Program-made: the position numbers and the translations under genes
Notes under the pieces: model-generated
What the model was told of the DNA's origin: nothing
Databases searched by the model: none
The model's input: the letters and a program-made list of their open reading frames with translations, nothing else
In this document: piece by piece, positions 36,927 to 64,000 of the stretch
How positions within the stretch are numbered: the stretch's first letter is position 1
Layout of the letters: each line of letters opens with the position of its first letter
DNA from: Helicobacter ganmani
GTDB taxonomy: Bacteria; Campylobacterota; Campylobacteria; Campylobacterales; Helicobacteraceae
DNA length: 64,000 nucleotides
Reading direction: 5' to 3'
NCBI RefSeq assembly: GCF_003364315.1
Contig: NZ_NXLS01000003.1
Location: 155,929 to 219,928, forward strand

Positions 36927-37802
36927 TTAAAATTCTTTGCTTTCTATTAATGTTTGCTCTTTCATTGCTTGAGCAATCTCTTCATAACCCTTCAGTGCAT
37001 CTTGATTGCATAAAACCCATTCATTAAGTCCCTCTAAACTCATCATATGTGCAATTTTTGGGTCATTTTTAAGGGCATTTTGTGATTTCATCATTTCTAC
37101 AAAGCTTCTTTTTAAGTAAGAATCAAAACTTTTTAGGGTTGTAAAATTACAATGACAATAAGCAGGGCTTGTGTAAAAATTCACCATTTGAGGATAATTT
37201 CCCTCTTGCATAACCCTCACCCAAGTAGTAGAGCCAATCGCTCCTGCATCTAGTTCTCCACTTTTTATTTTATCCAGCACATCAAATTCACTTCGCCCTG
37301 TATCGCCGTGTTTGCCCACATCGCTATTAAAGCGAAATATCCCCACACTCCCACTTTCTATCTGTGCGCTACCAAGCAAAGCAGGAGAAATTTCTTGCAG
37401 TTTAAATCCATTTTTTTGCAAATAAAATAAAGGCATAATCGCCGCTTGAGCAGAATCTAAACTCCCTAAACCAAATTTTTTACCCTTCAAATCCTCTAAA
37501 CCCTTCATTGTATCTCTTTTGGCTACAAATACACTTTTAAAGCCAATATCAGTATCGCGCATTAAAATTGCCTCTGCACCATTATTTGTGCAATGCCTAG
37601 AACGGATAAAAGCCACATTTGTATTCCAAGCAATATCTATTTTTCCCTCTTTAAGCCACTGCACTTGCCGCTCATAGTTGCTAAATAACACATAATCTAG
37701 CCTTATATCTTTAAAATAATCATTAGCATATTCCCTAATCGTATCCCAGATAGGGACAATTTGTGGCGCATACGCCACTGCACCTACTAAAATTGACTTC
37801 AT
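36927..37802 (-). CDS. PhnD-like substrate-binding fold protein without signal peptide
   Basis: A 291-residue protein with the periplasmic-binding fold of phosphonate/phosphite binders (PhnD). It shows GAVAYAPQIVPIWDTIREY, DYVLFSNYERQVQWL and KEGKIDIAWNTNVAFI, then MKGLEDLKGKKFGLGSLDSAQA. The N-terminus has neither a signal peptide nor a lipobox, so it should be cytoplasmic, and no ABC permease or ATPase is near. This fold also serves as an enzyme scaffold (for example the desulfinase DszB). Cys residues at RHCTNN and AYCHCNF could be relevant. It starts two bases after the acyl-CoA dehydrogenase homologue stops, in a three-gene operon. Confidence 0.8.
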   Translation of the reverse strand: MKSILVGAVAYAPQIVPIWDTIREYANDYFKDIRLDYVLFSNYERQVQWLKEGKIDIAWNTNVAFIRSRHCTNNGAEAILMRDTDIGFKSVFVAKRDTMKGLEDLKGKKFGLGSLDSAQAAIMPLFYLQKNGFKLQEISPALLGSAQIESGSVGIFRFNSDVGKHGDTGRSEFDVLDKIKSGELDAGAIGSTTWVRVMQEGNYPQMVNFYTSPAYCHCNFTTLKSFDSYLKRSFVEMMKSQNALKNDPKIAHMMSLEGLNEWVLCNQDALKGYEEIAQAMKEQTLIESKEF

Positions 37803-37804
37803 AT

Positions 37805-38938
37805 TTACTCCTTTGGTAAAAGTGCATCAGAGAGCCATACTTGTAAAATATCAAGACTTGGCGCCATTACTTGTGAAGCGAACGCGTCTCGCAAATATCG
37901 CTCTAGTGGCAAGAGCTTACTATAAGCTTTTCCTCCACCAAGTCGCATTGCAAGAGCACAAATGTCCATAACAAGCTGTGTGGCGTTAATCCTACACGCA
38001 AAGATTTTGCACATTGCATTAGATTCTTGATTATCAAATGCCCTTGCAGCCTCATAAACAAGTGCAATTTGGCTTTGCGTTTTGGTATAGAGTTCTGCGA
38101 TATGGATTCTCACTAACTCTTTATCTGCCAAAGAGGAGCCATCAGTATATTTTCTACTCTTACAATGAGCAAGCGCGCATTCATAAGCAGCCTTTCCCAC
38201 ACCGCTATACACCGCTCCAAGCCCCACGACAAAATACATTGCTACAACTCCAGCTTGCGCTTCACCCTCTCCGTCAATGCCAAGCAAATATTGTTTTGTA
38301 TGAAGCTTCACATCATTATATTGCACAGGTTTTGAGACATTTCCGCGCATACCTAACCCATTCCACACGCCCTCTTCGTGATAAATACCCTCCGCATTAT
38401 TGGGTGTAATCCAATTATTTTTACCACCATTTACTTTGCAAGAATTTGTATAGGTAAGATAATAGTTTGCTTGTTGTGCGGAAGTTACAAAGCTTTTGCG
38501 CCCTTTTAAGATTCTATATTCTCCCGCTTCTGTCTCTGTTATATCAGGCAACCCAAAATGTGTCCCAGAGCCACTTTCACTATAAGCAAGAGCAAAAGAA
38601 ATCTCCCCTTTTGCTATTTTTGGCAAAAATTCCTCTTTTTGCTCTTTTGTCCCAAAAGTCGCAATACAAGCCGTTGCAACATTATGCATCATATAGCAAA
38701 GTGCAGTAGAAGCGTCAAATTGCGCTAAAGTATAACACACCTGTGCGTGATTAAGACAATTTCCACCGCTTCCGCCATACTCTTTAGGCACTAATAATCC
38801 CATAAACCCTTGCTTTTTGAGCTCATCGTAGGCTTCTTTTGGGAATCTTGCTTCTTTATCAATAGATTCTGTATGAGGGGCAACAAATGCCTTGCCAAAC
38901 TCCGCTGCTTTTTGTTCTAAGTTTTCCAAACTTAACAT
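37805..38938 (-). CDS. Acyl-CoA dehydrogenase-family flavoprotein lacking the usual catalytic Glu
   Basis: FAD-dependent fold of 377 residues with all three ACAD domains: the N-terminal helical part (GFMGLLVPKEYGGSGG), the beta domain (SFALAYSESGSGTHF, GRKSFVTSAQQANYYLT, GLGMRGNVSKP) and the C-terminal four-helix part (GLGAVYSGVGKAAYECAL). Short-chain dehydrogenases have Y-E-G-T after the RDA motif. Here RDAFASQVMAPSLDIL has no Glu in that place. Loss of the base is seen in ACAD-fold monooxygenases and desulfurisation enzymes such as DszC. It is the middle gene of the operon, nine bases after its upstream neighbour. Confidence 0.85.
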   Translation of the reverse strand: MLSLENLEQKAAEFGKAFVAPHTESIDKEARFPKEAYDELKKQGFMGLLVPKEYGGSGGNCLNHAQVCYTLAQFDASTALCYMMHNVATACIATFGTKEQKEEFLPKIAKGEISFALAYSESGSGTHFGLPDITETEAGEYRILKGRKSFVTSAQQANYYLTYTNSCKVNGGKNNWITPNNAEGIYHEEGVWNGLGMRGNVSKPVQYNDVKLHTKQYLLGIDGEGEAQAGVVAMYFVVGLGAVYSGVGKAAYECALAHCKSRKYTDGSSLADKELVRIHIAELYTKTQSQIALVYEAARAFDNQESNAMCKIFACRINATQLVMDICALAMRLGGGKAYSKLLPLERYLRDAFASQVMAPSLDILQVWLSDALLPKE

Positions 38939-38947
38939 ATTTTCTCC

Positions 38948-40159
38948 TTACATAAAATTAGGTGTATGAGCCCTGCTTAAATCAAGGGCAAGTTCCTCAT
39001 CAATGCCACATTCCACAAGCCGCTTTGTGCGATTTTTCTCCATTTTTTTCTTTAATTCCTGCACCTCCTCAAATCCATTTGAAATTAACACTCTATCCTC
39101 ACCTCCTCCACGCAATAGAGCCATAGATTCTAAAAGCAGGGAGGATTCGCCACTTTGCGCATCTAAATAATTTTTACGCGCAAAAACGACTTCCTTTAAG
39201 GCAGCAATTTTGGCAGGATTTTGTGCTATTGCTTGTTTCACATTATTGATTCCATAGGCAACGTGGCGACTTTCATCTTTTCTTGCTAAAGCAAGTAAAT
39301 ATGCACTCGCCTCATCTCCTAATGCCCTAAAGCTCTCCTCTAAGAATTTCAACAAATCAATAAAAGTCCCTTCCCCCATAATATGCAGCAAAAAGCTAGA
39401 TTTGAAATAATCTTTCTCATTCCACAGGCTAAAAAGGCTTTGTTGCGTTGTAAGTGTGGAGTATTGCACACCAAGCCCTGTAATATTTGCCCTTTTGATA
39501 AAAGATTCTATATGTCGGCTCTCATCACCGATAATAGAGGAGAGTAAAAGCGGAATAGGCGTGAAAAAGGGTGAAATCTGCCCTAAAAATCGTGCGGGGA
39601 TATACAGAGCTGAAAACTCATTTTCAGTTAAATAAGTCATAATCTGTGCGATTGCAAATTGCAGGGCTGGGCTAAACTCTGGTATTTCTTGCCATTTTAT
39701 ATCTGTAGTGGCATTCCATTGCGACTTTTTAGAATCCTCATAAATTTGCAAAGCATTACTGCTCCAAATATTATTATTAGATTCTATACCAAAATGATAA
39801 TTTGGACTTGCCAATTCCACTTGCACACCATTTGGAGCTAAACCCTGTGTAGGTGGTGCAATATGGGAAGTGCAATCAAATTTTTGGAATCTTGTGGGGG
39901 ATTTTTTGCGCAAGATATATATAAAATTCCCTTTAGAATCTGTATTTTGGCTTATTGCGCGCTTTTGTATGAATTCCTCACCCTTAAAAGCACACCACAT
40001 ACTAAGGTCATTTTCTAAATTATCCCAATCACTCACAACTTCTATAATGTCGCCTTTGGAGACAAGTAAAAAAGCATTTTCAAGTCGCATAAAAAAGAGT
40101 GTGCTTGCAGGCAATGCGCCCATAAAAATGCAAGATTTCTGGGAATAGTTAGGATTCAT
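38948..40159 (-). CDS. TusA-like domain fused to a ferritin-like diiron domain
   Basis: A 403-residue protein, first gene of the operon. Residues 8-86 resemble the sulfur carrier TusA: LPASTLFFMRLENAF, GDIIEVVSDW, MWCAFKGEEFIQK and GNFIYILRK align in order, but the active Cys of the CPxP motif is replaced (ALPAS). Residues 160-310 are a ferritin-like four-helix bundle. Its ligands are Glu179 or 181, Glu213-x2-His216, Glu263 and Glu296-x2-His299, the full set for a diiron carboxylate site of the R2/AurF oxygenase type. The start codon is uncertain because no clear ribosome site precedes it. I know of no named enzyme with this fusion. Confidence 0.75.
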   Translation of the reverse strand: MNPNYSQKSCIFMGALPASTLFFMRLENAFLLVSKGDIIEVVSDWDNLENDLSMWCAFKGEEFIQKRAISQNTDSKGNFIYILRKKSPTRFQKFDCTSHIAPPTQGLAPNGVQVELASPNYHFGIESNNNIWSSNALQIYEDSKKSQWNATTDIKWQEIPEFSPALQFAIAQIMTYLTENEFSALYIPARFLGQISPFFTPIPLLLSSIIGDESRHIESFIKRANITGLGVQYSTLTTQQSLFSLWNEKDYFKSSFLLHIMGEGTFIDLLKFLEESFRALGDEASAYLLALARKDESRHVAYGINNVKQAIAQNPAKIAALKEVVFARKNYLDAQSGESSLLLESMALLRGGGEDRVLISNGFEEVQELKKKMEKNRTKRLVECGIDEELALDLSRAHTPNFM

Positions 40160-50611: not shown

Positions 50612-51940
50612 TCAAACCGAATGAAGGATTTGCTTCAACGCCTCTAAAAGCCGATTGATTTCCTCTTGCGTATGCGTATAATGCACATTTAGGCGCACCC
50701 AACCGGGCTTTTGGATAAAAAAGGCATTATCCTCCAATCCCAACAAATCGTGTCCATAAGGTCCAGCACAAGCACAACCTGCGCGAGTGAGAATCCCATA
50801 TTCTTTGGACAATTGAAGTGAGACTTCAAAGGGTGAGATTCCGCGAATATTAAACGAAAAAATTCCCAAAGCATTATGTTCTAAATTACCATAAGTTATT
50901 ATCTTGGGTTCATTTTCTAAAAATTCCCGCAATGTGCGGATATAAGGAATCTTTGCTTGTTGTATCCATTCTTGCCCAATCTCCTCCCGCAAAGCATAGC
51001 CAAAATAGCTTCGTAAAAACTCTAAAATACCGGGCGTTCCTGCCTCCTCTCTTCTTTGCTCTTGTGCATAATATTGTGCGCTTGTGCGAGAAACATAACC
51101 AACAATACCCCCACCACAAAAAGTTGGTGGCAAAGTTTTATCAATCAAGGCACGAGAAATGATTAAGATTCCACTTCCACCAATACCCCCCAAAAGTTTA
51201 TGAGGAGAAAGAAAAGCTACATCATAAAAACTTGGTGGAATATCCAAATAAGGTGAGGTAGTCGCACAATCAAAACATACGATTCCGCCAAAGGAACGAA
51301 TCAAATGAGAAATTTCCGCAAAGGGTGCTAAGATTCCACTTACATTGGAACCCAAAGCAAAAGAACCGATGATTTTACGCCCGACATTTGCACTTAAAAT
51401 ATTCTTTAAAGCCTCCAAATCCACCAATCCTTGCGTATTCAATCCTATACGCACAACTTCGCACAATCCCTCTCTGAAACTTAACTCATTGCTGTGGTGT
51501 TCATAAGGTCCAACAATCACGAGCGGAAAAGAAGATTTATCACGCAAGGAATCCACTCCCAAAATTTGCTTTGTTCTGGGTGGAATATAAATCCCTAAGA
51601 GTTCTTGAAACTTTTTGATTGCAGCAGTTGAACCAAAGCCACAAGAGATTAAAGCAAAATTAGAATCAAGTTTAAAGATTTGCTTTAATCTTTCCCTCGC
51701 CTCCTCATATAAGGAGCTGATTAATTCTGCGTGGGAATTACTCTCGGAATGCGTATTGGCATAAAAGGGCAAAATCTTGTTCATTCGCGATTCTACGCAT
51801 TTCGCTGCTAGCCCGCTCGCAGTCCAATCAAAATGATGGAATCCACTTTGCAAAATACACTCTTGTGATAAAATCTCACATTTGCGCCCTCTATCACTAG
51901 GCAAAGATTCCAAAAGCGGGGCGAAAAAATCTTGAATCAT
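50612..51940 (-). CDS. Class V aminotransferase, cysteine desulfurase-like
   Basis: PLP enzyme of 442 residues. The PLP-binding Lys is in AFLSPHKLLGGIGGSGIL, preceded by VCFDCATTSPYLDI with the PLP-contact Asp. The pyridine stacking His lies in GPYEHHSNEL. Near the end RAGCACAGPYGHDLLG contains a Cys in the position of the persulfide Cys of SufS/CsdA-type desulfurases. A sulfur-donor role is thus likely but not certain; isopenicillin-epimerase-like proteins share these traits. It stands alone between two small gaps. Confidence 0.82.
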   Translation of the reverse strand: MIQDFFAPLLESLPSDRGRKCEILSQECILQSGFHHFDWTASGLAAKCVESRMNKILPFYANTHSESNSHAELISSLYEEARERLKQIFKLDSNFALISCGFGSTAAIKKFQELLGIYIPPRTKQILGVDSLRDKSSFPLVIVGPYEHHSNELSFREGLCEVVRIGLNTQGLVDLEALKNILSANVGRKIIGSFALGSNVSGILAPFAEISHLIRSFGGIVCFDCATTSPYLDIPPSFYDVAFLSPHKLLGGIGGSGILIISRALIDKTLPPTFCGGGIVGYVSRTSAQYYAQEQRREEAGTPGILEFLRSYFGYALREEIGQEWIQQAKIPYIRTLREFLENEPKIITYGNLEHNALGIFSFNIRGISPFEVSLQLSKEYGILTRAGCACAGPYGHDLLGLEDNAFFIQKPGWVRLNVHYTHTQEEINRLLEALKQILHSV

Positions 51941-60562: not shown

Positions 60563-60661
60563 TGGCGAGAGGGTGAGAGAATCGAACTCCCCAGCAAATA
60601 GACACCTATCCACTCAAATGGGTTTGAAGCCCACGATGCCCACCAGCGACATATACCCTCC
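60563..60661 (-). tRNA. selC: tRNA-Sec (anticodon TCA)
   Basis: About 99 bases on the minus strand ending in CCA at 60563. The anticodon arm is GTGGG-CTTCAAA-CCCAT; the seven-base loop is identical to that of E. coli tRNA-Sec, with anticodon TCA reading UGA. A long variable arm follows, then the T arm with loop TTCGATT closed by GGGAG and CTCTC. GGAGGGT at the 5' end pairs with ACCCTC near the 3' end; the exact acceptor boundary is uncertain. The gene shows that selenoproteins are made by this organism. Confidence 0.9.
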
Positions 60662-63549: not shown

Positions 63550-64000
63550 TTATTTGAAATATTTGATATTAATTTTATCCTGTCTTATCCAGCTTCCAAC
63601 TGCATTATAATTTTTAATCCTGTCTATTACATTATTTTGAAAATCTAAAGTTTTAACATTGCTAGAATTATATTTATTAATTTTTACTACCTCTGATGTA
63701 ACCTTATTAGTTTTGAAATTATAGGTTGCGGCGATAGCTGCGTAATAATCTGAACCAAGATTAAAATAAGCAGAATCTCCAGCTTCCAATTCTACTTGGT
63801 AATACGCAGTATAATAAATATTGTTTCCAAAATTATCTACAACTCCATATTGTTTTTTAATTACTTGTTGCGCATACGCTCCCCCCACAACCTGCCTCAT
63901 TTCCTCCTCATTTAAGACTTTCACACCTGCACTTTGTTCGTTAAATTCTCCATTAGTTGCAAGGGCAATGAAATCTACTTCAGCAAAGAGTGTGCTTGAG
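63550..64000 (-). CDS. Protein with bacteriocin-type double-glycine leader motif, 5' end outside window
   Basis: At least 124 residues are visible. VKVLNEEEMRQVVGGAYAQQ resembles the double-glycine leaders cut by C39-peptidase ABC exporters: a hydrophobic residue, acidic residues, Met and Val at regular positions, then GG. If translation starts at GTG 63924, the leader is 15 residues and the mature part about 109. However, the frame remains open for 25 more codons to the window edge (LFAEVDFIALATNGEFNEQS), with no good ribosome site at the GTG. The mature part is rich in Tyr, Asn and Ile with YYTAYYQVELEAGDSAYF, and has no Cys. Its function is unknown. Confidence 0.6.
   Translation of the reverse strand, partial: SSTLFAEVDFIALATNGEFNEQSAGVKVLNEEEMRQVVGGAYAQQVIKKQYGVVDNFGNNIYYTAYYQVELEAGDSAYFNLGSDYYAAIAATYNFKTNKVTSEVVKINKYNSSNVKTLDFQNNVIDRIKNYNAVGSWIRQDKINIKYFK

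Follow-up and report, generated by a model that had tools for sequence, protein, structure and literature searches.

A recurrent three-gene operon of Helicobacter ganmani as a candidate selenium-supply module of Campylobacterota

What is the function of an operon that combines a predicted diiron protein, an acyl-CoA dehydrogenase (ACAD)-fold protein without its catalytic glutamate and a cytosolic protein with the fold of the phosphonate-binding protein PhnD? The question is raised by a 64,000-nucleotide stretch of the Helicobacter ganmani genome (hereafter the window), in which three minus-strand open reading frames (ORFs) at 36927-40159 are read in the order gene 1 (diiron), gene 2 (ACAD fold) and gene 3 (PhnD fold) and are separated by 9 and 2 bases. 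An earlier note, made from the sequence alone, had described them as a packed operon running in one direction and lacking an assigned pathway, and had guessed at organosulfur oxidation. The layout is confirmed and no characterised pathway turned up in the searches made, but the genes found linked to relatives of the operon are selenium genes. Here, we argue that the module acts in selenium metabolism (probability about 0.75).

Linkage of the module to selenium genes

Gene 3 (called at E <= 1e-25), gene 1 (E <= 1e-10) and SelD (profile TIGR00476) were searched for across 397 Campylobacterota genomes, and decayed copies of the module were counted. Gene 3 is present in 50 of these genomes and gene 1 in 45, all within the 50. 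SelD is encoded by 283/397 genomes, namely by 50/50 with gene 3 vs. 233/347 without it (Fisher p 1.5e-8). At the genus level, all 15 genera with the module lie inside the 45 (out of 68) that have SelD (p 8e-4), and in the home family SelD accompanies the module in 21/22 genomes compared to 24/37 other genomes (p 0.01). Among the 98 nearest genomes, SelD is found in 24 of the 25 that have adjacent ACAD- and PhnD-fold genes, the exception being the 76% complete G005. SelA was detected in each of 19 module genomes chosen from the 50 to be examined, which represent 14 genera.

The position of the module beside sel genes is stronger evidence than this co-occurrence. In genomes G357 (locus L098) and G180 (locus L099), selD lies 128 and 88 bases, respectively, upstream of the diiron ORF as called and on the same strand; both loci also contain selA and selB, and L098 a tRNA-Sec gene. 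On an actinobacterial plasmid of Miltoncostaea, selA and selD adjoin a version of the module with a radical S-adenosylmethionine (SAM) gene. The sel linkage is thus seen in two independent lineages, one Campylobacterota genus and Miltoncostaea. The link of the module to selenium is fairly strong.

Two features of the Campylobacterota sel-linked loci are mentioned in their own right. G357 carries two SelD copies (C15 and C17), of which only one adjoins the operon. In both genomes, the interval from selB to the operon (L098 9345-12770, L099 4953-8379) holds genes for a histidine kinase, a response regulator and an unassigned protein of about 385 aa, which has a membrane segment at its N-terminus and by eye resembles a binding protein; the three are possibly a sensor set for the locus.

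A constant gene pair with exchangeable partners

The earlier note treated the three genes as one unit, and across the phylum their co-occurrence is indeed near-strict. In 44 of the 45 genomes with gene 1, gene 3 lies on the same contig and strand about 1.1-1.8 kb away (one of these genomes, G403, has a frameshifted gene 3), and only the decayed copy in G052 deviates; gene 2 was directly seen between them in 31/44 and inferred from the spacing in 13/44. Within the 98 nearest genomes, gene 1 occurs in 25, of which 24, including that of the window, have genes 1-2-3 adjacent by coordinates, a recurrence beyond chance, and the other is the G052 remnant. Gene 1 is missing from G024, which has genes 2 and 3, from G043, which has gene 2 alone, and from G017, which has gene 3 fragments only. 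Broken or decayed copies (L096, L101, G052 C26, G017) in related genomes suggest that the module is lost readily.

The diiron gene, in contrast, stands outside the constant core. Five genomes (G024, G128, G186, G279, G309) have the order ACAD, PhnD-fold, MetE-like core and OsmC-like gene (frameshifted in G279), and they are exactly those with a relative of the core MetE at E < 1e-40. This version and the diiron gene occur together in 0/50 genomes with gene 3. In 4/4 copies of the MetE-like core proteins the Zn residues (HxC, E, C) are retained and, judged by eye, so are the Ser, Glu and Asp of the homocysteine site, while the folate domain is lacking; the residue roles are those given in PMC7857596. 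The OsmC-like proteins (L094, L095, L097, L045) have no Cys common to all four copies and in this resemble the gene 1 protein with its Cys-less TusA-like domain.

Outside the Campylobacterota, gene contexts came from plasmids only, searched with the PhnD-fold protein of M. vanbaalenii at E <= 1e-20. Three plasmid records contain a relative, with an ACAD gene beside the PhnD-fold gene in 3/3. In M. vanbaalenii, the pair has a membrane gene of the Rv1678 kind on one side and a radical SAM gene of the Rv1681 type on the other, in R. opacus it follows an Rv1678-like gene at the end of the record, and the Miltoncostaea cluster includes ACAD, PhnD-fold and Rv1681-like radical SAM genes. Since the pair recurs with diiron, MetE-like plus OsmC-like, or radical SAM genes, we consider it to be the constant part of the module and the partner to be exchanged. 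Near the M. vanbaalenii version are also genes for a peroxidase-related (carboxymuconolactone decarboxylase) and a deiodinase-like protein (L058 3324-4711). Two ACAD matches on Methylocystis plasmids were set aside as other ACADs, as they lie beside sfnG and ssuD with no adjoining gene named PhnD or SsuA; one of these loci has an ABC (ATP-binding cassette) substrate-binding gene about 1 kb on.

In the AlphaFold2 model of the gene 3 protein (predicted local distance difference test, pLDDT, 94.8), the binding-protein fold starts with strand 1 at residue 2, so that a signal peptide would not fit in front of it, and no transporter or ABC genes were noticed by eye among the neighbours in the window and the fetched loci; both points agree with the earlier note. 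Among solved structures, its nearest fold matches include proteins that bind phosphite, methylphosphonate or phosphate. The protein scores 270.1 bits with NF049985 (Rv1680, substrate-binding protein-like), for which the curated cut-off is 400, a value exceeded in 0/397 genomes of the phylum. Its nearest named transporter family is TIGR04553, "putative selenate ABC transporter substrate-binding protein" (1.2e-19, and 8.2e-24 for the L045 copy), with a score (70.7 bits) far below the cut-off of 250, as is that of the L045 copy. Aligned with PhnD1 and other transport proteins, the gene 3 protein retains Tyr43, Trp59, Arg82-Asp83 and Ser117. In PhnD, a His contacts the phosphonate; Glu172 aligns with this residue and His217 with the position of Asp206 in HtxB. 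D167 and E172 are found in 27/27 operon copies, H165 in 26/27 and H217-C218 in 27/27 (the loci with frameshifted genes, L096 and L101, were omitted whole from this and the following residue counts). The same five residues occur in all of the best 120 of at least 7999 candidate relatives of the Miltoncostaea PhnD-fold protein, and those of the 120 that are named are called phosphonate or phosphate-type transport proteins. This His/Asp/Glu/His/Cys set is thus conserved in the cytosolic clade and absent from the transport proteins compared, and the gene 3 protein looks like a cytosolic enzyme or ligand carrier rather than part of a transporter.

Ordinary ACADs take their catalytic Glu from a Y-E-G-T loop or from an alternative, isovaleryl-type loop. 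The gene 2 protein has the N, middle and C domains of the family, all above the Pfam cut-offs, but, as the earlier note had claimed, V-M-A-P stands in the catalytic loop (357-360), and the alternative loop (233-239) has no Glu either; the catalytic Glu is lacking from both loops in 28/28 sequences. The match to NF049984 (Rv1679 equivalog) reaches 219.5 bits, below the curated cut-off of 600, and that to the DszC model 61.7 bits against a cut-off of 850; matches to 3-sulfinopropanoyl-CoA desulfinase (3.2e-36) and SfnB (9.6e-26) are likewise far below their cut-offs. The lone ACAD relative of G043 (L046 7935-9080, minus strand; 51-53% identity) has neither a PhnD-fold gene nor a SelD match and could reflect decay or a new use.

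For the gene 1 protein, the proposed ligand motif E...ExxH...E...ExxH is borne out, with E179, E213, H216, E263, E296 and H299 identical in 20/20 aligned sequences (window copy counted) and E213 nearly invariant in a wider 56-row alignment. The AlphaFold2 model (mean pLDDT 90.5) places all six on a helical bundle, so that a diiron pocket is predicted, and we regard the protein as a probable ferritin-like diiron carboxylate protein. It scores 36.2 bits with DUF455 (PF04305; Pfam cut-off 34.3), and many of its relatives carry no precomputed DUF455 match. The proposed TusA-like domain without its Cys was upheld in part: the model shows beta-alpha-beta-alpha-beta-beta, which we take to be the TusA topology, and the persulfide Cys is absent (residues 15-18), but the TusA profile gives 13.3 bits, below the Pfam cut-off of 28.6. 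Relatives of gene 1 that bear a name are also known from Brachyspira, one Campylobacter and the Arcobacter group.

Features of the operon, as positions in the window
Feature	Position	Strand	Basis
Gene 1, fusion of TusA-like domain and DUF455/ferritin-like diiron domain, 403 aa	38948..40159	-	ORF, profiles, AlphaFold2 model
TusA-like domain without Cys, residues 8-84, beta-alpha-beta-alpha-beta-beta	39908..40138	-	AlphaFold2 secondary structure; Pfam TusA 13.3 bits
Predicted diiron helical bundle, residues 164-313, E179/E213/H216/E263/E296/H299	39221..39670	-	
Gene 2, ACAD-fold protein without catalytic Glu, 377 aa, relative of NCBIfam Rv1679	37805..38938	-	Profiles, alignment
V-M-A-P at the site of the catalytic Glu loop, residues 357-360	37859..37870	-	M358 and P360 identical in 28/28
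Gene 3, cytosolic PhnD-fold protein, 291 aa, relative of NCBIfam Rv1680 (substrate-binding protein-like)	36927..37802	-	Profiles, AlphaFold2 model, fold matches
Conserved loop H165-G-D-T-G-R-S-E172, aligned with the ligand-binding His loop of PhnD	37287..37310	-	
Conserved pair H217-C218, aligned with the ligand-contacting Asp of HtxB/PhnD	37149..37154	-	Sequence alignment

Elsewhere in the window, all on the minus strand, are a tRNA-Sec gene at 60567-60661, 20 kb from the operon, a class V aminotransferase gene at 50612-51940 that by eye resembles cysteine desulfurase/selenocysteine lyase, and a small ORF at 63550-63924 beginning MKVLNEEEMRQVVGGAYAQQ, with a likeness by eye to a double-glycine (bacteriocin-type) leader.

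Selenium supply and its rivals

We put at about even odds that the module serves cytosolic selenium supply upstream of SelD. Acting together, the operon products would free selenium from a small molecule, probably a methylated or other organic selenium compound, and SelD would receive it as selenide or selenite and pass it on to selenocysteine synthesis. The selenium substrate would be held by the PhnD-fold protein, as enzyme or carrier, via H165/D167/E172/H217/C218, and the ACAD-fold protein would use its flavin for a redox reaction different from the usual dehydrogenation of acyl-CoA. The partner enzymes would be interchangeable means of breaking a carbon-selenium bond: the diiron protein by an O2-dependent route, the MetE-like Zn protein by passing the alkyl group to homocysteine, and the radical SAM protein by a route without O2. 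The alkyl donor of the MetE-like core is likely not of the folate type, because the folate domain is absent. The task shared by the partners would then be to strip selenium of an alkyl group, while the ACAD- and PhnD-fold proteins would handle the selenium-bearing intermediate; this dealkylation detail is at best a long shot. In its most specific form, the proposal is a dedicated scavenging path in which a PhnD-fold enzyme, a base-less ACAD-fold flavoenzyme and three dealkylases strip methylated selenium, such as trimethylselenonium or methylselenol, and as a complete scheme we consider it distinctly unlikely. Several carriers of the module are presumably gut bacteria. Mammals excrete methylated selenium in the form of trimethylselenonium, according to PMC10844679.

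Several observations weigh against the selenium-supply proposal. selA, selB or selD lie near the module in only 3/107 fetched loci (L098, L099, L057), many of which overlap and which differ in their flanks, and both Campylobacterota sel-linked loci come from one genus. In the window genome itself, selD (G000:C4, with one in-frame TGA) and selA (G000:C6) are on other contigs, and a SelB-like match in the window of only 25% is likely another GTPase. Shared ancestry inflates the co-occurrence, since a MetE-like query used as a yardstick is also enriched (45/50 vs. 219/347, p 9e-5); its matches are mostly ordinary MetE, and in G186 the sole match is the module's own core gene. The module can be accessory at most, since 233 genomes with selD do without it, as does E. 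coli, one of 14 control genomes, which is SelD-positive and has no module match at that threshold. To our knowledge, M. tuberculosis is without selenocysteine machinery, yet it has Rv1678-Rv1681 (by family names), and G043 retains an ACAD relative with neither the module nor selD. The confinement to selD genomes is a count for Campylobacterota, and relatives in other phyla are barely covered by it. Finally, on these data a supply role is indistinguishable from the use of selenophosphate.

The latter is the main rival within selenium metabolism, although we regard it as unlikely. The module would here act downstream of SelD, with the PhnD-fold protein binding monoselenophosphate, a phosphonate-like anion, and the other proteins building a selenium-containing small molecule or cofactor. 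The solved folds closest to the gene 3 protein would suit such a ligand, and the operon has selD beside it in both G180 and G357, the latter with its second SelD; Glu172 at the position of the phosphonate-contacting His of PhnD does not favour a phosphoryl anion, however, the presence of SelA in all 19 genomes means that there is no tested case of selenocysteine-independent use, and no recurring tailoring genes were seen by eye among the neighbours of the operon.

The organosulfur pathway guessed at in the earlier note would join an ACAD-fold oxygenase, a desulfinase with a binding-protein fold and a diiron oxygenase in a Dsz-like oxidation or C-S cleavage without selenium. A base-less ACAD fold next to a binding-protein fold with a conserved Cys, such as DszB has, is what this explanation calls for; TusA-like, OsmC-like, MetE-like and thiol-disulfide proteins are among the partners, and the two sulfur-related profiles matched by the gene 2 protein, weak as these matches are, point the same way. 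But inspection by eye of the first residues of the neighbours identified no flavin reductase, sulfonate transporter or sulfur gene next to the operon (only some neighbours were searched with profiles), and a Dsz-like pathway leaves the sel linkage unexplained. The guess was therefore downgraded, on account of these neighbours and the weak DszC match, to very doubtful. DszB is not among the sequence and fold matches listed, nor THI5 among the fold matches listed, which is no evidence of their absence.

A folate-independent methyl-donor system for methionine synthesis, like MesD/MesX, in which the ACAD- and PhnD-fold proteins would supply the core MetE-like enzyme with its methyl donor and the diiron enzyme would be an O2-dependent variant, appears improbable. 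It could draw on the five genomes in which a folate-domain-less core MetE, with its Zn residues in the 4 intact copies, replaces the diiron gene, and on the O2 dependence of MesD/MesX as described in PMC7857596. However, G128 and G309 have a second MetE match in a frame of 761-768 aa, a match to the MetE query, with the frame length listed for some of them, is found in 40/45 genomes with the diiron gene, the diiron operon has no MetE partner, and the selD linkage is again left unexplained. The query finds matches in 264/397 genomes, most of those among the matches listed in frames >700 aa, and the core MetE-like gene therefore looks specialised. An azoxy-type or N-oxygenation natural-product pathway, with a VlmB-like diiron protein and the ACAD-fold protein as N-hydroxylase, was rejected as most improbable, given that VlmB (20% identity) is merely tied with R2-like ligand-binding oxidase (21.6) and aldehyde-deformylating oxygenase (21.4), that no biosynthetic neighbours were recognised by eye and that the gene pair exists without the diiron gene.

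If the selenium-supply proposal is true, it offers a concrete and testable route of selenium supply with exchangeable partner enzymes, puts in question the annotation of a clade whose members are now called phosphonate transport proteins, and suggests, for the first time, what the mycobacterial relatives Rv1679-Rv1681 might do.

Relation to known systems

The module appears to be new and its function is putative, as a literature search found no paper that joins SelD, selenium, acyl-CoA dehydrogenase and PhnD. Selenium candidates encoded next to selD include YedE, YedF (a SirA/TusA-like plus DsrE protein), DUF3343 and LysR_Se (PMC5322559), and an isochorismatase-like protein and others are named across PMC5322559, PMC4607533, PMC9312934 and PMC5029168. 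In their main texts, "acyl-CoA" and "phosphonate" are absent from PMC5322559, PMC4607533 and PMC9312934, "ferritin" is absent from PMC5322559, and "acyl-CoA" is absent from PMC5029168. YedF shares with the gene 1 protein a SirA/TusA-like domain, a comparison of TusA-like fold only.

The overall folds of DszC and DszB match two components of the operon. In contrast to the Dsz 4S pathway, however, no DszA-like or reductase gene was recognised in the operon, and the closest binding-protein relatives of gene 3 are of the PhnD type. The MesD/MesX system, as described in PMC7857596, shares a folate-domain-less core MetE with one version of the module, which differs by its adjoining ACAD, PhnD-fold and OsmC-like genes, with no MesX-like gene recognised. 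R2-like ligand-binding oxidase, the azoxy synthase VlmB and aldehyde-deformylating oxygenase have the ferritin-like diiron fold and carboxylate-His ligands in common with the gene 1 protein, at 12-20% identity, and it differs from them by its additional N-terminal TusA-like domain. From PhnD, PtxB and HtxB, the gene 3 protein is set apart by its predicted cytosolic location, by the lack of adjoining ABC genes and by the conserved Cys218; at the ligand positions, it has Glu172 for the His of PhnD and His217 for Asp206 of HtxB.

One close known counterpart is mycobacterial. Genes Rv1676 to Rv1681 lie in this order in M. tuberculosis, and NCBIfam lists Rv1678-Rv1681 (NF049986, NF049984, NF049985, NF049973) as curated families without an assigned function, to which genes 2 and 3 are related. 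In PMC8562490, Rv1680 is named a putative phosphonate transporter component. The Rv1678-Rv1681 set includes radical SAM and membrane genes where the Helicobacter operon has the diiron-TusA-like gene instead, and the M. vanbaalenii copies share with the Helicobacter operon both the conserved residues and the order of an ACAD gene followed by a PhnD-fold gene.

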